Virus record (IMG/VR): IMGVR_UViG_3300043418_000119
Coordinates: 1-32,123 of that record
Direction: 5' to 3' (one strand)
Length of the DNA stretch: 32,123 bases
Origin: a virus
Below the pieces are notes generated by a model, which had not been told where the DNA came from, ran no database searches, and was given only the letters and a program-made list of their open reading frames with translations. Numbering within the stretch: the first letter of the stretch is position 1; each line of letters starts with the position of its first letter. A program made the translations under genes and the position numbers. Below, in pieces: positions 3,598 to 32,123 of this stretch.

Positions 3598-3780
3598 GTG
3601 GCAACTTTCGCTCAAATGTCAGGCAATACCGTCAGCAATGTGATTATGGCTGACAATAAAACAGCAACCGAACAAGCTTTGAACTGTGTGCTAATCGAAT
3701 ACACGGCTGACAACCCTGCCGGAATCGGTTGGGTTTACGATGAATCAACTGGCACATTTACACCACCACAGGGAGAGTAA
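3598..3780 (+). CDS. Small adhesin-associated protein (60 aa)
   Basis: GTG start behind a strong AAGGAGAAA site. The N-terminal pattern FAQMSGNTVSNVIMAD and the C-terminal YDESTGTFTPP match the small phage protein family typified by FAxLxxNxVxxVIVxD...TYDxxxxxFxPP, often found near tail-fibre genes. It directly follows a glycine-rich adhesin, as does its likely relative at 16813. Its stop overlaps the protease-fusion start (TAATG). Function unknown; a fibre accessory, tip or assembly role is inferred. Confidence 0.7.
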   Translation: MATFAQMSGNTVSNVIMADNKTATEQALNCVLIEYTADNPAGIGWVYDESTGTFTPPQGE

Positions 3781-5783
3781 TGCCGTATTACATTAGCGAT
3801 AAACAAGCCGATTGCCAGGGATGGGCAACAATAAAAGTCACCGACGGCAAACCAGAAACCATTACCTGCCACGGCGACAACAAGCAAGCTGCAACAGATC
3901 ACATGGTTGCTTTGTCAATGGCTGAAGGTATGAAACCTTTGGGTCAGTATTTTGGTGCTGGTGAACGCGATAACGGTGGTAACCGTGTATTGATTTGTGA
4001 CATTGATGACACACTCATTCATAACGGCATGTTGATTCAAGACACCGCCGATTTTGTCGCATCACAAGAAGTCGGCATCATGCTAGTCACTGGTCGCTTG
4101 GAAGCAACTAGGGCTTCAACTGTGGAACAACTTAGTAAACTAGGAATGGACTATGACCATTTGTTTATGAACGATTTAGGTTCACCAGCAAAAGCGGTTG
4201 AGTTCAAAAAGAAAACGGCTGAAGAACTTCTGAAACACTACGAAGTTGTTATGGCTATTGATAACGATGGTGGTGCGCGTGAAGCTTACGCTTCTTTGGG
4301 TATCCCTGTTGTTGACCCGACCCGACTACCTGCAAAGCGTGAAACGATGACCCCAGACCAAAACGCACCGGTTGTAGATGCGACCGTAAACCCGACGGAT
4401 GCGCCAGAGGCACCTTGCACGAAGCAGGACTTGGAACTGCGTTTGCGTGACCTACTCGGTGACGTTGTAACGTTCAAGTTCCTGGCACATGGTTTCCATT
4501 GGAATGTGCGCGGCATCAACTTCAGCCAGTTCCACGAGTTCTTTGGTGAGATTTACGAAGATGCCGACGGTTCTATTGATCCGATTGCAGAAAACATTCG
4601 CAAACTAAACTTTGACGCACCATTCAAGTTGCAGGATTTCATTGAATCAGCTGACGAACTTGAACCAACAGATTCCAGCGACCCACTGGAAATGAGCCGT
4701 AGCCTTTACATGGCTAACGAAGATGTGCGCGAAAGCATTATCCACGCCATCAGTCTTGCTGACGAACTGGGTGAGCAGGGAATTCTAAACTTCTTGGCTG
4801 AACGCCAAGACATGCACTCTAAATGGCAGTGGCAGTTGCGTGCCATCGTTGGGGATTCGTTCGCAAAGAACTATGAGATTGATGTTCAGGCTGTTTCTGA
4901 AGGTGTTCAGACCGGTGAGGGTAATGAGAAGCCACAGGAGATTGATACTGAAGGTCAGGGCAACCCAATGTCGGCTATCACCAACCCTAACGGCGCACCA
5001 ATGGTTGAGCAGAATAGTAACCAGACTAAGTGGACTAAGGCTGCGAACATGATTTTGCGTCGCCTTGAACCAGCACAGCAAGCACCGATGCCTGAAGCTC
5101 GTGACGCAAAGTTTGAAACTCGTGTGAATCATGTTGATTTTGAGTTGCGTGCGACTGCTGACGGCATGTCTTTTGAGGGTTACGCATCGGTTTTCAACAG
5201 CCCTTCTGAACCTATTGGTGGCCATTTCACTGAGTATGTTGCACCTGGTGCTTTCAAGCGTTCCCTTTCTAGCCGTAACGATGTGAAGTTGTTGTGGAAT
5301 CACGACACTGGGCAGGTGCTTGGATCAACTCGCGCCGGCACTTTGCAGCTCGTTGAAGATGCTCAGGGTTTGAAGGCTATTGCTACTTTGCCTGATACTC
5401 AGTTGGGTCGTGACACTGCAACCCTTATCAAGCGTGGTGACGTGGCTAACATGAGTTTTGGTTTTAGTGTGCCTGTTGGTGGCGATTCTTGGAACGCCGA
5501 GGGCAATGTTAGAACTTTGAACTCGGTTCGCCTTCACGAAGTGAGCATTGTTTCGTTCCCTGCATACCAGGCAACAACTGTTTCGGTTCGTTCAAACATT
5601 AGTGCTGACGCGCTCGCCGAATCATTGATGAAGTTGGAAAACGGCGAAGATTTGTCAGCTGACCAGGCAACGCTAATCAATGATGTTGTAACCCGTCTAA
5701 CCAAATCGGTGGAGGAAAACCCTGCTGAAGTTATTCTAGGATTGAAACAGAAGCAACTTGACCTAATGTTGAAAAGGATTTAG
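3780..5783 (+). CDS. HAD phosphatase / Dps-ferritin-like / HK97-type prohead protease fusion
   Basis: One uninterrupted 667-aa ORF with at least three domains. Residues 1-50 form a small cysteine-containing module (DCQGWA) seen at the front of some phage head proteins. Residues 68-185 look like a HAD hydrolase: DIDDT (D74, D76), VTGR (T104), a Lys-rich stretch and DNDGGA (D161, D163). Residues 213-365 resemble Dps: H240, H252, D267 and E271 have the spacing of the Dps ferroxidase ligands, and ERQDMHSKWQWQLR matches the last Dps helix. Residues 440-605 are a U35-type prohead protease with WNHD (H508), MSFGF (S559) and HEVSIVSFPAY. The protease should cleave the capsid delta domain inside the prohead, so the N-terminal domains may be carried in as cargo. 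Domain assignments are by motif; the combined function is unknown. Confidence 0.85.
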   Translation: MPYYISDKQADCQGWATIKVTDGKPETITCHGDNKQAATDHMVALSMAEGMKPLGQYFGAGERDNGGNRVLICDIDDTLIHNGMLIQDTADFVASQEVGIMLVTGRLEATRASTVEQLSKLGMDYDHLFMNDLGSPAKAVEFKKKTAEELLKHYEVVMAIDNDGGAREAYASLGIPVVDPTRLPAKRETMTPDQNAPVVDATVNPTDAPEAPCTKQDLELRLRDLLGDVVTFKFLAHGFHWNVRGINFSQFHEFFGEIYEDADGSIDPIAENIRKLNFDAPFKLQDFIESADELEPTDSSDPLEMSRSLYMANEDVRESIIHAISLADELGEQGILNFLAERQDMHSKWQWQLRAIVGDSFAKNYEIDVQAVSEGVQTGEGNEKPQEIDTEGQGNPMSAITNPNGAPMVEQNSNQTKWTKAANMILRRLEPAQQAPMPEARDAKFETRVNHVDFELRATADGMSFEGYASVFNSPSEPIGGHFTEYVAPGAFKRSLSSRNDVKLLWNHDTGQVLGSTRAGTLQLVEDAQGLKAIATLPDTQLGRDTATLIKRGDVANMSFGFSVPVGGDSWNAEGNVRTLNSVRLHEVSIVSFPAYQATTVSVRSNISADALAESLMKLENGEDLSADQATLINDVVTRLTKSVEENPAEVILGLKQKQLDLMLKRI

Positions 5784-6196: not shown

Positions 6197-7378
6197 ATGT
6201 CTGAGTTTCTAAAGGCACAGGTTGAGGAACGCCAGAAGCTTTGGCACGAGGCAAAGTCGGTTCTTGAAACCGCCGAAGCTGAGAGCCGTTCGCTAACTGG
6301 TGAGGAAGAGCAGAAGTACCAGGCTCTTTCGACCGAACTTGACCGTCGTGCATCGTTCATTGAGGAAGCCCGCAAGGTTGCTGAGCGCGAAGAGCGTGCC
6401 GCTGCACTTGCAAGCGACTTCACCGTTCCTTCTGTTTCGGCTTCGACCGACGCAGAGCAGATCCGTGCAATGGCTCGTGGAGAGAAGCGCAGCTTCGACT
6501 TCAGCAACGAGCAGCGTGCGATTGCACCAGCAAGCACCGGTGCGCCAGTACCAACTTCGTTCTACAACCAGGTTATTGGTGTAGCAAAGTTTGTCGGCCC
6601 GATGCTAACCACTTCGACCATGCTTCGCACCGCTTCGGGTGAGCCACTGCAGATTCCTTCGCAGGCAACTTACTCGGCTGGTACCCAGACCGCTGCTGGT
6701 TCGGCACTCACCGAGAGCGACCCAACCTTCAACGCGTTCAAGACCCTTCAGAGCTGGAAGTTCGGTGGCCTAATCACCATCGCACGCGAGCTACTTGAGG
6801 ACACTGGTGTTGACCTGCTCGGCTTCCTTGCAGACCAGATCGGTGTTGGACTTGGTTCGAGCATCAACGCAGCCCTAACCACTGGAACCGGTACCACTAC
6901 CCCACAGGGTATTGCAACCGTTGCAGCTTCGGGTGTTACTGGTGGAACTGGTGTTACCGGTGCGTTCACCGCTGACAACCTGATTGACCTTGTGTACTCG
7001 GTTAACACCGCTGCACGTCGTCGCCCAGGTGCTGGTTTCCAGATGAACTCTGCCGCTATCGCAGCCGTTCGTAAGCTCAAGGACAACTACGGTCGCTACA
7101 TTTTCGACCCAGCCCTTTCTGCTGACAAGAACGACCTTCTACTGGGTTACCCAATTTTTGAGAACCCAGACTTGGCTTCGCCAGCAACCAGTGCCACTTC
7201 GGTGCTGTTCGGTGACCTAGCCAGCTACTACGTTCGTGAGGTTGGCGGAATCCGTCTAGACCGCTCGGATGACTATGCGTTCGCTAACGACCAGGTAACC
7301 TTCCGTTACACCTGGCGTGGAGATGGCAACCTAATCCAGACTTCTCACGTTAAGAAGTTTGTTGGTGCTGCTAGCTAG
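6197..7378 (+). CDS. Major capsid protein, HK97 fold
   Basis: 393 aa behind a strong AAGGAG site. The N-terminal 75 or so residues are highly charged and helical (coiled coil), as in the HK97 delta/scaffold domain removed by the prohead protease. A linker then leads into the capsid core, with elements such as FVGPMLTTSTMLRT, WKFGGLITIARELLEDTG, YGRYIF and VTFRYTWRGDGN. It has its own promoter region and is flanked by terminators on both sides, so it is transcribed as a single gene. Codons are visibly biased to C/G-ending forms (AAC, TTC, ATC, ACC, AAG) unlike neighbouring genes, in keeping with very high expression. Confidence 0.93.
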   Translation: MSEFLKAQVEERQKLWHEAKSVLETAEAESRSLTGEEEQKYQALSTELDRRASFIEEARKVAEREERAAALASDFTVPSVSASTDAEQIRAMARGEKRSFDFSNEQRAIAPASTGAPVPTSFYNQVIGVAKFVGPMLTTSTMLRTASGEPLQIPSQATYSAGTQTAAGSALTESDPTFNAFKTLQSWKFGGLITIARELLEDTGVDLLGFLADQIGVGLGSSINAALTTGTGTTTPQGIATVAASGVTGGTGVTGAFTADNLIDLVYSVNTAARRRPGAGFQMNSAAIAAVRKLKDNYGRYIFDPALSADKNDLLLGYPIFENPDLASPATSATSVLFGDLASYYVREVGGIRLDRSDDYAFANDQVTFRYTWRGDGNLIQTSHVKKFVGAAS

Positions 7379-7391
7379 TAGCTTCTAAGCG

Positions 7392-7436
7392 GAATCCCCT
7401 CACCGGTGCGTAGGCTGGTGGGGGGATTCTTCTTTT
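7392..7436 (+). terminator. Rho-independent terminator after the capsid gene
   Basis: A 13-bp stem (7392-7404 with 7417-7429, one G-T pair; GAATCCCC against GGGGGATTC) and a 12-nt loop, followed by TTCTTTT. It isolates the capsid transcript from the glycosyltransferase genes. Confidence 0.9.
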
Positions 7437-7467
7437 GCTATTGTGGAGTTACTACGAAAGGAAAACA

Positions 7468-8634
7468 ATGCCAAAGGGTTCTATTAGTTGGTTCAGCAAT
7501 TCCCCTGACGCACCTACTGGTTATGGTGTGCAAACTAAGCAGGTTGTGAAACGCCTTCTTGATGATGATTACAAGGTTGCTATTTTGAGCAACTATGGTC
7601 GTGAGGGTGTTGATGGTGAAGTGCGTGTGGGGAATCATGTTATCCCTGAGTTTGCGCGTGGCACTGACGCTTATTCCCAAGACGTTACCCCATTGAACTT
7701 TCAAATGTGGAAAGCACAGAACCCTGGTATGCCTTCTGCGTTGATTACTTTGTATGACACTTGGATTATGAAGGGTGCGTATAAGGATGTTCCTATTGGG
7801 TCTTGGACACCTGTGGATCATCATCCTGCCCCACCACCAGTATTGGAGTGGTTGGCTCGCCCGAACGTGACCCCGATTGCTATGAGCAAGTTTGGTCAGA
7901 AAGTTATTCAGGATGCGGGCATTGAGGCTGAGTATGTGCCTCATGCTGTTGAGCGTGTGTTTCAACCAACTTCGATGGTTGGGAAGCAAACTAACCGCGA
8001 GTATTTGGGGTTTACGGATTCTGATTTCATTGTGGGTATGAACGCAGCTAATAAGGCTAATGGTTTGGTTCACCGTAAAGCGTTTGCTGAAAACTTGTTG
8101 GCGTTTGCTATTTTCGCTAAGAAACGTACTGATGCGAAACTGTATTTGCACACTGACATGTTTGGGGCTTTTGGTGGTTGGGCTTTGACCCCGTTGCTGG
8201 AATCAGTTGGTATTAGCACTGACCAGGTTGTGTTTGTGGATCAGATTGCTTACCGTAAGGGTATTTCGCAAAACATTTTGGCGGGTATTTATTCAGCATT
8301 TGACGTGTATTTGGGTGCGTCTTATGGTGAGGGTTTTGGTGTGGGTACGATTGAGGCTCAAGCTTGTGGTGTGCCGGTGATTGTTTCGGACTTTGCTGCG
8401 TCTAGTGAACTTGTTGGTGAGGGTTGGTTGGTTCAGGGTCAACCGTTGTGGGATCACCATCAGCGTGCCTGGTTCAATGTTCCTAACGTGAATAGCATTG
8501 TGGATGCCCTTGAGCAAGCGTATAAGCGCGGTAGGGGCGTTTCTGCTAAGGCTTTGGAGTTCGCTAAGCAATACGATGCTGATGCCGTGTATGAGGCGCA
8601 TTGGAAACCTGTTTTGGCTAAGTTGCTGAAGTGA
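7468..8634 (+). CDS. Glycosyltransferase, GT4-like (GT-B fold)
   Basis: 388 aa. ATG at 7468 is chosen over the upstream in-frame TTG at 7435 because AAAGGA sits 5 bases before it and the TTG lies in the terminator tail. The C-terminal half has the retaining GT4 signature E-x7-E (E288, E296) in GEGFGVGTIEAQACGVPVI, which binds the nucleotide-sugar donor. An N-terminal SNSPDAPTGYG loop suits the acceptor domain. It is the first gene of a three-gene cluster with a GT2-like enzyme and a nucleotidyltransferase, wedged between the capsid and connector genes. The likely role is glycosylation of a virion protein or a host envelope polymer; the sugar is unknown. Confidence 0.85.
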   Translation: MPKGSISWFSNSPDAPTGYGVQTKQVVKRLLDDDYKVAILSNYGREGVDGEVRVGNHVIPEFARGTDAYSQDVTPLNFQMWKAQNPGMPSALITLYDTWIMKGAYKDVPIGSWTPVDHHPAPPPVLEWLARPNVTPIAMSKFGQKVIQDAGIEAEYVPHAVERVFQPTSMVGKQTNREYLGFTDSDFIVGMNAANKANGLVHRKAFAENLLAFAIFAKKRTDAKLYLHTDMFGAFGGWALTPLLESVGISTDQVVFVDQIAYRKGISQNILAGIYSAFDVYLGASYGEGFGVGTIEAQACGVPVIVSDFAASSELVGEGWLVQGQPLWDHHQRAWFNVPNVNSIVDALEQAYKRGRGVSAKALEFAKQYDADAVYEAHWKPVLAKLLK

Positions 8635-9275
8635 TTCCAGTTGTCGGGTTCGCAACCCTGAAACGATTTGACCTAGCCGACCGGTTGCTGGCTAGCATTG
8701 ATTTCCCTGTTGAAAACCTTGTCATCGTAGACAACAGCGGCAAAGCTGAATGGAACCCTGAAAAGCCTTTGTGGGTTCAAAACATGTGGGTTATTCGTGT
8801 GCCGTTCGGGTTGGGTTTGGTTGGGGCTTGGAACCTTATTGTGAAGTCAACGCCTTATGCCCCGTATTGGGTGTTAGTAAACGATGACGCTTGGTTCGCA
8901 TCTGGATCATTACGAATCATTAGTGAGGATGTGGACACCAATGCACTCAACTTTGTGGACATACAGCCCAAATGGTCTGCGCCGATTTTTGGCGAAGGCA
9001 TGGTGGATAAAGTGGGTTTGTATGACGAACGCTTTTATCCTTTGTATTTTGACGATAATGATCTTGAACGTCGTGTGGTGCATCATGGTGTCAGAATCAA
9101 AACGATTAAAGCAAAAGTTCATCACGATAATTCATCAACTTTGGTTGGGCATGAACAGGTGAATGCTATTTCGTATCAGAAGAACAGTGAGTTATTTCAG
9201 CGTAAGCAAGCTGAACAGGATTTCACGCAGGGTGAATGGTCGCTGAATACTAGAAGGGGCAACCGATGGGATTGA
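8631..9275 (+). CDS. Glycosyltransferase, GT2-like (GT-A fold)
   Basis: 214 aa with a GTG start overlapping the previous stop (GTGA), so it is probably translationally coupled. The N-terminus, VVGFATLKRF followed by VIVDNSG, is the Rossmann-like donor site of GT-A enzymes. VNDDAWF (D85, D86) takes the place of the metal-binding DxD. YFDDNDLERRVVHHG and a following KVHHDNSST match the C-terminal acidic/His motifs of rhamnosyl-type GT2 enzymes. It is somewhat short, about a catalytic domain only, with no TM segment. It probably adds a sugar in series with the GT4 enzyme. Confidence 0.82.
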   Translation: MIPVVGFATLKRFDLADRLLASIDFPVENLVIVDNSGKAEWNPEKPLWVQNMWVIRVPFGLGLVGAWNLIVKSTPYAPYWVLVNDDAWFASGSLRIISEDVDTNALNFVDIQPKWSAPIFGEGMVDKVGLYDERFYPLYFDDNDLERRVVHHGVRIKTIKAKVHHDNSSTLVGHEQVNAISYQKNSELFQRKQAEQDFTQGEWSLNTRRGNRWD

Positions 9276-9700
9276 CTATTTACACTGGTGGGACTTTTGA
9301 TTTGTTCCATAACGGCCATGCAGAGTTCCTACGCCGATGCGCCGAACTAGGCCGTGTAGTTGTTTCGTTGAACACTGACGAGTTCATAGCAACCTATAAA
9401 GGCAAACCACCGGTGATGACGTTTGATGAACGCGCTGATGTTTTGCTTGCTTGCCGTTACGTTGACCGTGTCATTCCTAACGTTGGCGGTGCGGATTCCA
9501 AACTTGCCATTGACATTATCCAACCTGACCTGGTTGTGATTGGTTCTGATTGGGCTGTGCGTGACTATTACAAACAAATGGGATTCGACCAGGCGTGGTT
9601 GGATGTGCGTGGTATTGGGCTTTGCTACATTCCTTACACTCAAGGGATTAGTACTACTCAAATTAAGGAACGTCTTAGGTTCGGTAAACTAGAAGCATAG
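9266..9700 (+). CDS. Cytidylyltransferase-like nucleotidyltransferase
   Basis: 144 aa, overlapping the previous gene by 10 bases. TGGTFDLFHNGHAEFL carries the HxGH nucleotide-binding motif (H15, H18), and GISTT (residues 127-131) is the second conserved motif of the glycerol-3-phosphate cytidylyltransferase and ADP-heptose synthase family. The length equals that of a single-domain enzyme of the TagD type. It would activate a sugar- or alcohol-phosphate with CTP or ATP, supplying a donor for the two adjacent transferases. The exact substrate cannot be read from sequence. Confidence 0.82.
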   Translation: MGLTIYTGGTFDLFHNGHAEFLRRCAELGRVVVSLNTDEFIATYKGKPPVMTFDERADVLLACRYVDRVIPNVGGADSKLAIDIIQPDLVVIGSDWAVRDYYKQMGFDQAWLDVRGIGLCYIPYTQGISTTQIKERLRFGKLEA

Positions 9701-17778: not shown

Positions 17779-17945
17779 AGGCACAAACTCGCAAAAACAT
17801 TTACACCATCGCAGCAGCGGTTGTTCCAATGCTAGTTGCTATGGGTTACCTGACTGATGCTATGGGTCAAGCCATTATCGGCATTATTACTGCGGCAATG
17901 ACTGTTGGTGTTTCGCTTCTAGCTCGCCGTCATGTTGGGAAATAA
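17775..17945 (+). CDS. Holin, two transmembrane segments (56 aa)
   Basis: The start overlaps the endolysin stop (ATGA) and AAAGGAG lies upstream. After a basic MKAQTRKN start come two hydrophobic segments (about residues 10-25 and 33-50) and a basic end LARRHVGK. Size, topology and place after the endolysin match small actinophage holins. The last 59 bases overlap the convergent whiB gene. Confidence 0.8.
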   Translation: MKAQTRKNIYTIAAAVVPMLVAMGYLTDAMGQAIIGIITAAMTVGVSLLARRHVGK

Positions 17946-18225
17946 GACGCTTCAACTGCCGTCTTTCTTCTGGTGTTAGTCCACCATAGATTCCGTATGC
18001 TTCATCGGCTTTGATGCCATAGTTCGCGCACTCGGTGTTGAGTGGGCATCGGCGGCAAATCGTTTTCGCTAACTCTATTTCTTGCCTATCCATCAACATT
18101 TTGTTGTTTTCAGGAAAAAACACATCCGGTACTTGTTCGCACTCCACGCCACCATTTTCAATGATTGCTTTTACAAGTGTTTTGTAAGCTCGTGTGGCTT
18201 CTGAGGAATGTCGTAGGTGTGTCAT
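17887..18225 (-). CDS. WhiB-like iron-sulfur transcription regulator
   Basis: 112 aa on the minus strand, the only gene there. Four cysteines (C29, C57, C60, C66; C-x27-C-x2-C-x5-C) would bind a [4Fe-4S] cluster. GIYGG followed by LTPEERR is the family signature, with Tyr in place of the usual Trp. The basic end (RRQLKR) suits DNA contact. ATG 18225 is preferred; an upstream in-frame ATG (18273) lies inside the divergent gene. WhiB proteins act with the host primary sigma factor region 4. Phage copies (e.g. in mycobacteriophage TM4) alter host transcription and superinfection. It probably controls phage gene timing here. Confidence 0.9.
   Translation of the reverse strand: MTHLRHSSEATRAYKTLVKAIIENGGVECEQVPDVFFPENNKMLMDRQEIELAKTICRRCPLNTECANYGIKADEAYGIYGGLTPEERRQLKRLISQHDGELEAKHQQSLPQ
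17944..17971 (+). terminator. Possible weak terminator of the late operon
   Basis: AAGACG (17944-17949) pairs with CGTCTT (17960-17965) over a 10-nt loop, followed by TCTTCT. It starts within the holin stop codon and lies inside the convergent whiB coding end. The stem is short, so this is tentative. Confidence 0.35.
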
Positions 18226-18226
18226 A

Positions 18227-18241
18227 AAGTAAACCTTACTT
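18227..18241. promoter_or_regulatory. Candidate operator between whiB and the early operon
   Basis: A perfect inverted repeat AAGTAA-ACC-TTACTT fills half of the 30-bp gap between the divergent start codons of whiB (18225) and the exonuclease gene (18256). It could bind a dimeric regulator or WhiB itself. Its occurrence by chance cannot be excluded. Confidence 0.4.
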
Positions 18242-18255
18242 AGAAAGGTTGAAGT

Positions 18256-19131
18256 ATGGCAACTATTGGGCATGAAACACCAGCGTTTGAATCTGCGGTG
18301 TTGTTGGGTGATTTTGTGAATGGGTCACCGGAGTGGCATCAGGCGCGCCAGGGTTCGTTGGGTGGGTCGCAGGTTGGTGCGGCTTTGGGTTTGAATCCGT
18401 GGGAATCTGCGTTTACTTTGTGGTTGAAGTTGACGGGTCAGATTGAATCGAGCATTACTCCGTCTATGAGTATGCGTTTGGGTACGAAGTTGGAAACACC
18501 TATTTTGGAAGTGTTTGCTGAGGAACATCCTGAACTGCGTGTGTTTACTACTGGCACTTATGAACATTATGCGGATCCATGGAAGCACGCTAACTTAGAT
18601 GGTTTGTTCGAGGGTGAACATGGTTTGGGTGTTGTCGAAGTCAAATACTCAGCTGACTTTTGGACTGAAGTGCCTAAGCATTATGAGTACCAGGTGCGCT
18701 GGTATATGCACATTCTTGGTTTGAAACGTGGTGTGATTGTTGCGTTGTGTGGTTCGTCGTATAAAGAGTTTTGGTTGGAGTATGACGAGTTCATTGAGGC
18801 CGCCATGTTGGAACGGTTGACAGAGTTCTGGGGATGTGTTTTATCACATCAGCAACCTGAGTGGGATGGGTCGGAATCCACTTACCAAAGTGTGCGTCAA
18901 CTAAACAAAGACATTGTTGATAACGATGTTGAACTGGGTTCATTGGGTTCGGCGTTGCTGGAGATGAATACCGCGCTCGCTGATGCCAAATACGATTACA
19001 ACTTCTACGCCAGCCAGGTTTTGGATTTGATGGGTGATGCAAAGAATGGGTTGCTGAATGGTCAGCGAATCTGTTACCGTCAAAACAGTAGTACCGGTAC
19101 ACCGTTTCTAAAGATTGTGAAAGGAAAGTAA
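18256..19131 (+). CDS. YqaJ/lambda-type recombination exonuclease
   Basis: 291 aa with GAAAGG upstream. It has the YqaJ-type PD-(D/E)XK nuclease motifs: GSLGGSQVGAALGLNPW near residue 35, ANLDGLF (D115), VEVKY (E128, K130) and YEYQVRWYM (Q146). Such enzymes degrade one strand of double-stranded ends for recombination by single-strand annealing. It heads the early operon, with a putative annealing protein two genes downstream. Confidence 0.88.
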   Translation: MATIGHETPAFESAVLLGDFVNGSPEWHQARQGSLGGSQVGAALGLNPWESAFTLWLKLTGQIESSITPSMSMRLGTKLETPILEVFAEEHPELRVFTTGTYEHYADPWKHANLDGLFEGEHGLGVVEVKYSADFWTEVPKHYEYQVRWYMHILGLKRGVIVALCGSSYKEFWLEYDEFIEAAMLERLTEFWGCVLSHQQPEWDGSESTYQSVRQLNKDIVDNDVELGSLGSALLEMNTALADAKYDYNFYASQVLDLMGDAKNGLLNGQRICYRQNSSTGTPFLKIVKGK

Positions 19132-28068: not shown

Positions 28069-28506
28069 ATGCCAACTCCACCAAAACCAGCTGAATTGAA
28101 AATCCTTCAGGGTAATCCTGGTAAGCGTTCTTTGCGTTTGAATGATGGTATTGCGCCTATGGAGTATGGCTACATTGAGCCGTTGCGCCCGTTGAGTCCA
28201 GTGGGCAAACAGTTCTGGGACACTATTTTTGGTGCTGGTGAATTGTGGATCAGCATTAAGACGGATACTCAACTTGTGCAGATGGTTTGTGAGTTACTTG
28301 ATCGGCGCGAAGTGTTGCGTGAAGCGTTTGTTGCTGACCCTACTAACCGACCTGTGAACATGTCTTTGTTGGAGACTGAAAAACAGATTGTGAACGCGTT
28401 TTCGTTGCTTGGGTTTACTCCGGCTGACCGTACCAGGTTGGGTTTGGTTTCGGCTAAGACTAAGTCGAAGTTGGAAGAGTTGTTGGCGCGTAAGGCTGCT
28501 CAGTGA
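28069..28506 (+). CDS. terS: Terminase small subunit, P27 family
   Basis: 145 aa from ATG 28069 (an in-frame TTG lies two codons upstream). MPTPPKPAELKILQGNPGKRSL is the hallmark start of P27-family small terminases, and the C-terminal helices (LLGFTPADRTRLGL) also match. It recognises the packaging site and stimulates the large subunit. Its stop overlaps the large subunit start (GTGA). Confidence 0.9.
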   Translation: MPTPPKPAELKILQGNPGKRSLRLNDGIAPMEYGYIEPLRPLSPVGKQFWDTIFGAGELWISIKTDTQLVQMVCELLDRREVLREAFVADPTNRPVNMSLLETEKQIVNAFSLLGFTPADRTRLGLVSAKTKSKLEELLARKAAQ

Positions 28507-30023
28507 GTTGGCCGCCACAATGGTTGACACCTGTTCCCGCTGAGGCTGTTGCCCAGGGTGATGGGTTGTTTGCGGCTGAGTTTGCGGAAACATTTGGGTC
28601 TATTGGTAAGGATGGGGTTACCGGTCGCACCGGTGATCCGTTGGTTATGAGGCCATGGCAGGTTTCGTTATTGCAAAACTTGTTTGCGCGTGACGAAGCT
28701 GGTGGTTTATTGGCGCGTACAGCGTTGATTGGTATGCCACGCAAAAATGGTAAATCGGCTTTGAGTTCGGCCGCTATTGGGCTTTATAGCCTGCTCGCTG
28801 AGGGTATCAATGGTGGTGAGGTGATTGCTATTGCTGCTGAAAAGGAACAGGCTCGCATTGTTTTTGGTGAAGCGAAACGAATGGTCGAATCAAGTGAGTT
28901 GTCTGAGCTAGTCCAGGTGTATAAGGATTCGATTTATGTGCCGTCAACTTCTAGTGTGTTCAAGGTCATGTCGGCGGAGGCTTACTCTAAAGAAGGTTTG
29001 AACCCTAGCCGTGTGATTATGGATGAGTTGCATGCCCATAAGAACCGTGATTTGTTCGATGTGTTTAGCCTGGCGATGGGTAACCGTGGCAAGATTGCTC
29101 AGTTGGTGGCGATTACAACAGCGGGTGTGAAGTCTGACATTACTGGTCAGGATTCCATTGCGTATTCGTTGTATCAGTATGGGCAGAAAGTTGCTCGCGG
29201 TGAGATTGTTGACCCGTCGTTTTTTATGGCTTGGTGGGAAGCTGACCCTGATGGTAATCATCGTGACCCTGAGCAGTGGCGTAAAGCAAACCCTGGGTTT
29301 GATGACATTATTTCTGAAGATGATTTCAAGTCGGCTGTTTTGCGTACACCTGAAGCGGAGTTTCGTACTAAGCGTTTGAATCAGTGGGTTTCTTCGCAGA
29401 TTAGTTGGTTGCCTAATGGGGTTTGGGAACCGTTGCGTGATGATGTGAACATTGATGATTATGAGATTATGTTGGGTTTTGATGGTTCGTTTAGTGGTGA
29501 CGCAACCGTTATTGTTGGTTGCACTATTCCTAAATCGCCTGATGATAATCCGCATTTGTTTATGGTGAAAGCTTGGGAAAAGGTTGACGGCGTTGATGAC
29601 GATAATTGGCGTGTGCCGATTCAGGATGTTGAAGAAGAAATTCTAAATTTTTGCGCAACTCATAAGGTGCGTGAAGTTGCTTGTGACCCATACCGGTGGC
29701 AACGTTCGATGGAAGTGTTGCAGGATAAAGGGATTCCTATTGTGGAGTATCCGTCTACTAATGCTAAACGCATGGTTACTGGGTGTGCAAAGTTTTTTGA
29801 TTATGTCACTGATGGGCGTATGAGCCATGACGGTAACCCGATGATTACCCGCCATTTGTCTAACGCTATTACTAAGACTGATTCGTTGGGTGTGCGTATT
29901 GTGAAAGAAAACCGTGCGAGTTCGCGTCGCATTGACGCAGCTGTGGCCGCGGTGATAGCCCTTGACCGTGCCACCGCAGGTAGACTAGATGTGCAGGTCA
30001 TTCCTGAATTCTTTTCTTTTTAG
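28503..30023 (+). CDS. terL: Terminase large subunit
   Basis: 506 aa with a GTG start. ATPase: Walker A-like GMPRKNGKS (77-85), Walker B VIMDEL (D174, E175). The RNase H-like nuclease has acidic residues D327 (GFDGSF), D395 (ACDPYRW) and D478 (RIDAAVA). HK97-type (Terminase_1) length and layout. It translocates DNA into the prohead through the portal encoded next. Confidence 0.95.
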   Translation: MSWPPQWLTPVPAEAVAQGDGLFAAEFAETFGSIGKDGVTGRTGDPLVMRPWQVSLLQNLFARDEAGGLLARTALIGMPRKNGKSALSSAAIGLYSLLAEGINGGEVIAIAAEKEQARIVFGEAKRMVESSELSELVQVYKDSIYVPSTSSVFKVMSAEAYSKEGLNPSRVIMDELHAHKNRDLFDVFSLAMGNRGKIAQLVAITTAGVKSDITGQDSIAYSLYQYGQKVARGEIVDPSFFMAWWEADPDGNHRDPEQWRKANPGFDDIISEDDFKSAVLRTPEAEFRTKRLNQWVSSQISWLPNGVWEPLRDDVNIDDYEIMLGFDGSFSGDATVIVGCTIPKSPDDNPHLFMVKAWEKVDGVDDDNWRVPIQDVEEEILNFCATHKVREVACDPYRWQRSMEVLQDKGIPIVEYPSTNAKRMVTGCAKFFDYVTDGRMSHDGNPMITRHLSNAITKTDSLGVRIVKENRASSRRIDAAVAAVIALDRATAGRLDVQVIPEFFSF

Positions 30024-30033
30024 GCGGTAGATT

Positions 30034-31392
30034 TTGGCAAACTGGTGGTCAAGGTTGACGGGCGCAGAGGAACGCGCCATTTCTTTTCAAAGCATTTGGG
30101 GTGCTGGTGATTCCCTTGCTTGGCAGTCCGATTCGGGTGCAAGCGTTACCCCTGATTCTTCGTTCAGCATTGTTCCGTTCTATTCCGCTGTAAACCTTAT
30201 TTCGGGTACCATTTCGACTTTGCCTGTTGATTCTTTTGTTCGTAAGAATGGGCAACGTGTTCCTTACCGACCTAAGCCTTTGTGGGTTACTAAGCCGGAC
30301 ATTGATTTGGTGGCTGGTCAAGCTCACTGGCAGCAGGTTCTAATCAGTTTGTTGGTGTGGGGTAACTCTTACACTCGTGTTTTCCGTGATCCAAAAACTC
30401 TTGAGATTGTGAACCTTGTAGTCCTTGACCCAACTTTGGTTGATGTGAAGCGAAACGCTGTTGGGCGCAAGATTTACACTTACCAGGGTGAGGTAGGCAA
30501 GTCGCTTACTTCTGATGAGATTTTGCACATCACTGACATTTTGTTGCCTGGTGCTGTGAAAGGTAAGGGTCGTGTTGAGGCTCTTAAGGAAAACTTGGGC
30601 TTGGACATTGCGTTGCAGTCTTTTGCAGCTCGCTTCTTTGGTGGTGGCACCCAGACTTCGGGAATTATCGAATACCCTGGTGCGTTGACCGCTCAGCAAG
30701 CTAAGGATTTGGCTAACGGGTTTGATAACCGTCACAAGGGTTACCGTAATGCTCACCGCACCGGTGTTCTTTCGGGTGGAGCTAAATACACTCAGACTTC
30801 TACCCCAAATGACGCTAACCAGTTCATTCAGTCGCGTGAGTTCGCGGTATTGGACATTGCTCGCGCGTTTCAGATTCCACCGTTTATGTTAGGTGTGCCT
30901 GGTACTACGTCTTATGCCAGCGTTGAACAGATGGCAATTGATTTTGTAACCCACACTTTGCGCCCGTATGTGGAACGCCTAGAAGCCGCTTACAGCACTT
31001 TGTTGCCTGATAATGCGTTCTTGAAGTGGAACCTTGATGGACTTATTCGTGCTGATTTTGCTACTCGTATGCAGGGTTACAGTATTGCTATTCAGGGTGG
31101 TTGGATGAGCATCAATGACATTCGTACCCTTGAGGACTTTAAGCCGACTGATGGTGGCGACGCTTACCGTGTACCACTAGCGAACGTGAACCTATCAGCT
31201 GCGGAGTTGTCGGCCGATGAAATCAAGGTGAAAATGGCCGCGGAACTTATTAGTCAAGGTTTTGCACCGGAAGAAGTTCTTTCCGCTATGGGTCTGCCAC
31301 AGATTACTCACACTGGTGTTCCTTCTGTGAAGTTGCAACCTGTTGCTTCTATTGATCCGAACGCACCTGAAACTGTTTACGGAGGTAACTAA
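30034..31392 (+). CDS. Portal protein, HK97 type
   Basis: 452 aa from TTG 30034. FYSAVNLISGTISTLPVD, LLVWGNSYTRVFRD and IPPFMLGVP are standard blocks of the HK97 portal family. It forms the dodecameric vertex ring for DNA entry and tail attachment. Its stop overlaps the next gene (TAATG). Unusually, six adhesin-type genes separate it from the protease. Confidence 0.93.
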   Translation: MANWWSRLTGAEERAISFQSIWGAGDSLAWQSDSGASVTPDSSFSIVPFYSAVNLISGTISTLPVDSFVRKNGQRVPYRPKPLWVTKPDIDLVAGQAHWQQVLISLLVWGNSYTRVFRDPKTLEIVNLVVLDPTLVDVKRNAVGRKIYTYQGEVGKSLTSDEILHITDILLPGAVKGKGRVEALKENLGLDIALQSFAARFFGGGTQTSGIIEYPGALTAQQAKDLANGFDNRHKGYRNAHRTGVLSGGAKYTQTSTPNDANQFIQSREFAVLDIARAFQIPPFMLGVPGTTSYASVEQMAIDFVTHTLRPYVERLEAAYSTLLPDNAFLKWNLDGLIRADFATRMQGYSIAIQGGWMSINDIRTLEDFKPTDGGDAYRVPLANVNLSAAELSADEIKVKMAAELISQGFAPEEVLSAMGLPQITHTGVPSVKLQPVASIDPNAPETVYGGN

Positions 31393-31724: not shown

Positions 31725-32123
31725 GTTATGTAGTTACTGTGAATGAGCCGGTAACAACTGTTGATGTTACTGAGAACACTATTCTGATTAATACGACTAC
31801 TCAGGCCGTTGAGGTTACTGTTTCTAATGCTGGTGTTCAGGGTGTACCTGGTGCTGGTGTTGCTACTGGTGGTACTGCCACACAGATTCTTGCTAAGAAC
31901 TCAAGCACGGATTATGACACTGGTTGGATTGATAACTTCACACCAACTGTGAAACACCTTGTTAAGAATGATGGCACAGCTTTGAGCAAGGGTGCTGCTG
32001 TTTATATTTCGGGTGCTAACGGTACGAACATGATTGTTAGCCCTGCTTCTAACACTTCTGACGCTACTTCGGCTGAAACGATTGGTCTGTTGGAAACAGC
32101 GTTGGCTGTGAACGCTCAAGGGT
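31721..32123 (+). CDS. Tail fibre protein, N-terminal portion (continues at 1)
   Basis: Starts at ATG 31721 (ATGA overlap) and is open to the end of the window, continuing in frame to 1278 on the circle for a total of 517 aa. The N-terminus has beta strands (VVTVNEPVTTVDVTENT), a collagen-like GVQGVPGAGV, then LAKNSSTDYDTGWID, a common junction of phage fibres, and the [21 protein letters not shown] block. The last 127 bases duplicate the window start. Confidence 0.9.
   Translation, partial: MSYVVTVNEPVTTVDVTENTILINTTTQAVEVTVSNAGVQGVPGAGVATGGTATQILAKNSSTDYDTGWIDNFTPTVKHLVKNDGTALSKGAAVYISGANGTNMIVSPASNTSDATSAETIGLLETALAVNAQG
31997..32123. repeat. Terminal direct repeat, right copy (circularisation overlap)
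   Basis: Exact copy of the first 127 bases of the window. Removing one copy gives a 31,996-bp circle in which every gene around the junction is intact. Confidence 0.95.

Follow-up and report, generated by a model that had tools for sequence, protein, structure and literature searches.

The protein encoded at positions 3780..5783 (+) of the window, by which the whole stretch of viral DNA analysed (32,123 nucleotides) is meant, combines four domains within one intact reading frame of 667 amino acids and is best read as a capsid-targeted 'polyvalent' protease. From the N to the C terminus, a small N-terminal domain, a HAD domain, a Dps domain and an S78 protease domain were assigned concordantly by Pfam, PHROGs and AlphaFold2/Foldseek. 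Polyvalent proteins are defined by the union of at least two disparate domains in a single phage product whose gene lies among those of the virion (PMC5512222), and this is the case here. An earlier note had described this frame as a fusion of HAD, Dps and prohead protease; its coordinates and length proved exact on recheck, and the fusion was borne out by all three lines of analysis. We favour, with moderate confidence, the view that the head protease serves as a carrier by which DNA-protection and end-healing cargo is loaded into the prohead.

Domain composition and conservation

The full-length protein was modelled with AlphaFold2 from 35 input sequences (pTM 0.33, so that the relative placement of the domains carries no meaning). 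The model contained a folded N-terminal domain, a Rossmann-like HAD block, a four-helix bundle (residues 215-357) and an S78 block, together with disordered linkers at residues 185-211, 371-414 and 431-444 (pLDDT about 30-45). Separate folded blocks were accordingly obtained for the HAD, ferritin-type and S78 parts, as the earlier note had anticipated for a structure prediction, and the linkers placed there at residues 186-212 and 366-440 lie near the disordered stretches. The best 50 PDB fold matches of the full-length model included no S78 or HAD chain; this absence is not evidential, as the list was filled by Dps structures. In BFVD, entries from uncultured phages labelled just 'Prohead protease' were retrieved, one of which (A0A6J7WPK9) aligned along the whole length; no paper on these fusion entries was found in the literature search.

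Residues 1-60 (3780..3959, +; pLDDT about 85) form an extra small domain that had been missed in the earlier note. It carries the conserved pattern 'C.GWA..K...CH.TK..A' and recurs in related head proteases, among them phage proteins without Dps.

The HAD domain (residues 68-186; 3981..4337, +) was recognised by Pfam as Acid_phosphat_B (residues 91-160, E 5e-9) and by PHROGs as phrog_415 polynucleotide kinase (residues 69-188, E 7e-13); PF25109 was slightly below the cut-off in L029, a related locus. Folded alone, the domain reached a pLDDT of 96, and its best structural match was the T4 Pnkp 3'-phosphatase (Z 17.2, 1.9 A, 117 residues), followed by bacterial Pnkp1 (Z 16.8), lipid-binding Nir2 (15.2) and AphA-type phosphatases (near 10.6). 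The generic acid phosphatase of the first Pfam match was dropped, because the domain folded alone fits Pnkp better. Residues D74, D76, T78, T104, R106, K143 and D161 were invariant in 26/26 sequences. Motif IV does not show the two acidic residues looked for, but reads D161-N162, with Asn in place of the second Asp in 25 of the 26; since this second acidic residue is missing, the domain is named just 'Pnkp-like'. The HAD phosphatase of the earlier note thus stands as to motifs and fold and is refined, on the basis of the model, to a predicted polynucleotide 3'-phosphatase type.

The Dps domain (residues 214-366; 4419..4877, +) was identified by profile, fold and ferroxidase ligands. Ferritin/Dps (PF00210) was found at residues 222-358 by Pfam (E 2e-15), and phrog_3636 Dps by PHROGs (E 2e-22); among fold matches, 8ff9 gave a target TM of 0.82, and Dps structures were recovered at Z about 18. 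The ferroxidase ligands H240, H252, D267 and E271 were kept in 36/36 complete Dps domains scored. In the Dps domain of L070, which was found after this scoring, two of the four were lost (FSWN, IAQN). The fifth ligand, an acidic residue four positions after the second His, is absent, with G256 here and Q or E in relatives; Q also occupies this position in the solved Borrelia NapA (2pyb), so the fifth ligand is not strictly defining. Judged from the sequences, the changed fifth ligand of Dps and the motif-IV Asn of HAD may alter activity. Dps proteins are dodecamers in which the ferroxidase ligands are contributed by two subunits, and the conservation of these ligands suggests that the domain still assembles. 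The net charge amounts to -16 for the Dps domain and to -4 for each linker, and there is no basic N- or C-terminal DNA-binding tail. DNA condensation, one of the uses put forward in the earlier note, is therefore disfavoured, and a DNA-condensing Dps was considered unlikely.

The S78 domain (residues 451-612; 5130..5615, +) was assigned from Pfam (Peptidase_S78, PF04586, residues 455-605, E 1e-49), from PHROGs (phrog_80 head maturation protease, E 2e-66) and from H508, S559 and E587, which were invariant in 28/28 sequences and which we take, from knowledge of the family, to be the catalytic set. It is apparently the enzyme with which this phage matures its own head. The C-terminal segment (residues 613-667; 5616..5780, +) was helical in the AlphaFold2 model, with a lysine-rich last helix (LKKKKLDLL type), and is possibly a capsid-binding tail.

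The segments between the domains differ in constraint. Linker 1 (residues 187-213; 4338..4418, +) is disordered (pLDDT about 35) and is the least constrained segment of the protein, whereas linker 2 (residues 367-450; 4878..5129, +) is mostly disordered with a conserved 'W..AA..I.R.LEP' helix inside. In close pairs, pN/pS was 0.34 for linker 1, 0.29 for the C-terminus, 0.20 for the N domain, 0.17 for linker 2 and 0.16 for HAD. With values of 0.11 and 0.10, respectively, the Dps domain is as strictly constrained as the S78 protease. No motif for cleavage sites was established when the linkers were inspected by eye.

Recurrence and genomic setting

A search of IMG/VR returned 57 related loci (labelled Lnnn). 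When the related ORFs were scanned with domain HMMs, 25 single ORFs with the order N-HAD-Dps-S78 were identified, the window itself accounting for two of them; further ORFs were cut by contig ends, two held Dps-S78 only, and one full ORF was added later. A Dps tree was built that included the 22 distinct Dps-S78 fusion sequences obtained from IMG/VR, the contigs of which come from over 20 metagenomes. The architecture, which according to the earlier note should be sought in metagenomic phages, thus recurs in all these metagenomes, with identities of 43-79%. Where a fusion contig extends far enough, the gene is in nearly every case preceded by an ORF of portal size (about 450 aa) and followed by one of MCP size (about 400 aa).

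Prokaryote genomes (84,980) were scanned with the close alignment as query, and one Dps-S78 fusion was found, on an independently assembled 4.7-kb contig of a GenBank betaproteobacterial MAG. This contig encodes a terminase, a portal, a RAR-Dps-S78 protein, which is 36% identical in its Dps-S78 part, and the beginning of an MCP-like gene (neighbours read by eye); its betaproteobacterial bin is an unsafe guide to the host. A prophage scan of sequenced genomes with the window fusion protein itself gave no match, no match to isolated phages spanned 80% of the query protein, and the first 25 kb of the window, compared with phages at the nucleotide level, gave no match. Relatives were found without Dps (phiPsal1, L028-L037) and without HAD (L020, L021, L159), so that neither domain is needed for maturation as such.

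The first 127 bases of the window are repeated at its end (1-127, 31997-32123), so that the map closes into a circle of about 31,996 bp. On this circle, the terminase large subunit (28503..30023, +) is followed by the portal protein (30034..31392, +), the fusion gene and the HK97-type MCP (6197..7378, +; phrog_10, E 3e-59), with tail-fibre-type genes between portal and fusion gene. With the portal upstream and the MCP downstream, the place of the fusion gene in the head module is supported. The MCP has an N-terminal delta/scaffold segment, which is expected to be the protease substrate. Directly upstream, a 60-aa ORF (3598..3780, +) ends in a stop codon that overlaps the fusion start codon, and the two genes are possibly translationally coupled. 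A WhiB-type regulator (17887..18273, -) points to an actinobacterial host. Elsewhere in the window, a tail-fibre-like ORF (34-1278) contains many repeats of a 12-residue motif. Two glycosyltransferase genes and a nucleotidyltransferase gene (7435-9700) lie between the MCP and the connector genes and are kept in several relatives; they perhaps serve in capsid glycosylation.

The association of Dps with head genes extends beyond S78. A fusion of Dps to XkdF (PF14550), another family of head proteases, was seen in L035 and L081, and the frame L070:3-2030 begins inside an XkdF-type domain (own HMM) and continues with Hva1-Tudor, Dps and a zeta-toxin-type kinase. In the Dps tree, the XkdF-fused Dps grouped with the S78-fused Dps and the standalone Dps of L032 (support 98/99). 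Since Dps stands before S78 and after XkdF, the Dps-protease joins look separate. A Dps gene lies directly after a phrog_776 portal in L038, L039, L040, L044, L045 and L046; in L056, Dps is flanked by a portal gene of phrog_145 and a scaffold gene of phrog_206. In a search with Dps only, for which the protease was not used, 29/38 loci lay in head modules by our own count, a share that should not be read as a survey of phage Dps at large because retrieval was seeded from the window Dps. In the larger phages L047-L054, Dps adjoins genes built from N, Tudor-like, RAR and HAD modules. L020:3530-4882 was paired with the standalone L032 in the Dps tree and with L015/L016 in the S78 tree, a disagreement by which Dps modules have seemingly been swapped between phages.

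Some further features were recorded at these loci. An HSP20 gene (L047:5534-5944) lies upstream of the standalone Dps and the module genes, with similar neighbourhoods in L048-L054. Directly after the portal and the Dps fusion, L044:5855-11026 forms a 1724-aa ORF with a DnaG-type zinc ribbon, a primase core and Toprim; it is likely another capsid-module polyvalent protein. In L032 and L035, the Dps gene is surrounded by rows of ORFs with a short tag in each ('QPRDSHGRFA'-like and 'KHDQSTHG'-like, respectively).

Proposed role and alternatives

In HK97-type phages, the prohead protease has to reach the interior of the prohead before packaging begins, and cargo fused to it should therefore enter too. 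Under the carrier hypothesis, the fusion protein would be brought into the prohead by its S78 domain and C-terminal tail, and the delta segment of the MCP would be cut there by S78; the Dps ferroxidase domain and the Pnkp-type 3'-phosphatase would ride along and enter before DNA packaging. Dps could shield packaged or newly injected DNA from iron and peroxide, and HAD could clean 3'-phosphate ends left by oxidative breaks. With flexible linkers, the cargo might be cut free or be active while tethered. By analogy with the protease family, we infer that the fusion enters the prohead, and we further infer virion retention, linker cleavage, iron loading and a DNA-protection role. Carriage of HAD and Dps into the prohead had been suggested in the earlier note; it is supported by the repeated linkage of Dps, through adjacency or fusion, to portal and protease genes in several phage lineages and by the detection of Dps in purified virions of the Proteus phage Privateer (PMC7881722). 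The cargo could also be lost, as propeptides cut by prohead proteases commonly exit the head during maturation (PMC10052503).

A more specific form of this proposal is put forward tentatively: Dps cages might form in the prohead, their subunits bearing protease and 3'-phosphatase arms, as an iron-storage and end-repair kit packed with the genome. Prohead proteases would, in that case, offer a general slot through which interchangeable cargo domains are delivered.

We regard it as unlikely that Dps is instead an assembly device, its 12-mer gathering the proteases into a scaffold-like core that is digested and expelled, with iron chemistry secondary or absent. Such a role would suit the established formation of dodecamers by Dps, the action of the protease at the scaffold stage, the position of Dps between portal and scaffold in L056, and the kept fold of L070 with two ferroxidase ligands gone. 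Pure scaffolding, however, needs none of the four ligands found in all 36 scored domains, close relatives build heads without Dps, and the conserved HAD active site would be left unexplained.

Quite improbable, in our judgement, is an action of HAD and Dps in the infected cell, as stress protection for which the fusion just gives late, high expression. For standalone Dps genes of phages, a contribution to the oxidative-stress tolerance of the host has been proposed (PMC8008677; PMC6669764), and the dps gene is shortened in P. salivibrio, the host of the closest isolated phage (PMC6106888). For co-expression, however, an operon would suffice, with no need to join a protease located inside the capsid; Dps is tied to head genes over two protease and several portal families, the fusions are under purifying selection, and phage Dps is known in virions, as in Privateer.

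Separate production of Dps and protease from internal translation starts, with the fusion as an economical gene arrangement, is very doubtful: in-frame start codons with weak upstream purine-rich stretches occur in some orthologues, but none with a ribosome-binding site is conserved in place across them, and this explanation was rejected. An assembly artefact joining separate genes, the outcome that the earlier note had named as fatal to the fusion, has a negligible chance and was ruled out by the independent homologues from more than 20 metagenomes and the separately assembled MAG contig.

Should cargo carried by the protease be retained in the virion, a natural enzyme-loading route would exist for small siphophages via an obligatory protease, and phages of aquatic bacteria would gain a built-in defence against oxidative DNA damage. 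Retention would also bear on ideas of virion-borne iron and provide a design for packing enzymes in capsids. The shuffling of N, RAR, Tudor-like, HAD, Dps and zeta-type kinase modules over two protease families suggests a wider capsid-cargo set, and further capsid cargo proteins could be found by inspecting head proteases.

Comparison with known systems

With HK97-type prohead proteases (Peptidase_S78), the window protein has in common the conserved His, Ser and acidic residue, and its phage shares the portal-protease-MCP order and the delta segment of the MCP. It differs in about 440 added N-terminal residues with two further enzymes; the S78 relatives from isolated phages found here were shorter and without Dps. 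The HAD domain shares the DxDxT, [TS]GR, K and D motifs with the 3'-phosphatase domain of T4 Pnkp, whereas the window protein is without a kinase domain, has D-N and not D-D in motif IV, and is fused to Dps and protease. Standalone phage Dps proteins (phrog_3636; Privateer; Gratiaviridae; Lactobacillus phages) are likewise phage-encoded and of Dps fold, but are separate, unfused genes, whereas the window Dps is joined to a protease.

The closest isolated phage, by fusion protein, is the Pontimonas phage phiPsal1 (MG835450). The N domain is common to both, and the head genes of phiPsal1 follow one another as in the window (TerL, portal, protease, MCP, glycosyltransferases). Its protease, in contrast, has 484 aa and carries, in place of HAD and Dps, a phrog_2859-type 'RAR' domain.

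The statement in the earlier note that no such system had been described was too strong. Polyvalent proteins of phages were predicted to be packaged by Iyer et al. in 2017, and an assemblin-like peptidase, if present, was always C-terminal in them (PMC5512222). The concept of packaged polyvalent proteins is therefore already published; Dps as cargo is not part of the main text of that paper, which mentions neither Dps nor ferritin, and no described Dps-protease fusion was found in the literature search. As in those proteins, unrelated enzymatic domains are combined here in one phage protein of the virion region, and the C-terminal S78 of the fusions parallels the C-terminal assemblin-like peptidase. 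In the XkdF-Dps fusions, by contrast, the protease is N-terminal, and the peptidase of the window protein differs from that of the published polyvalent proteins in being, apparently, the phage's own head maturation protease.
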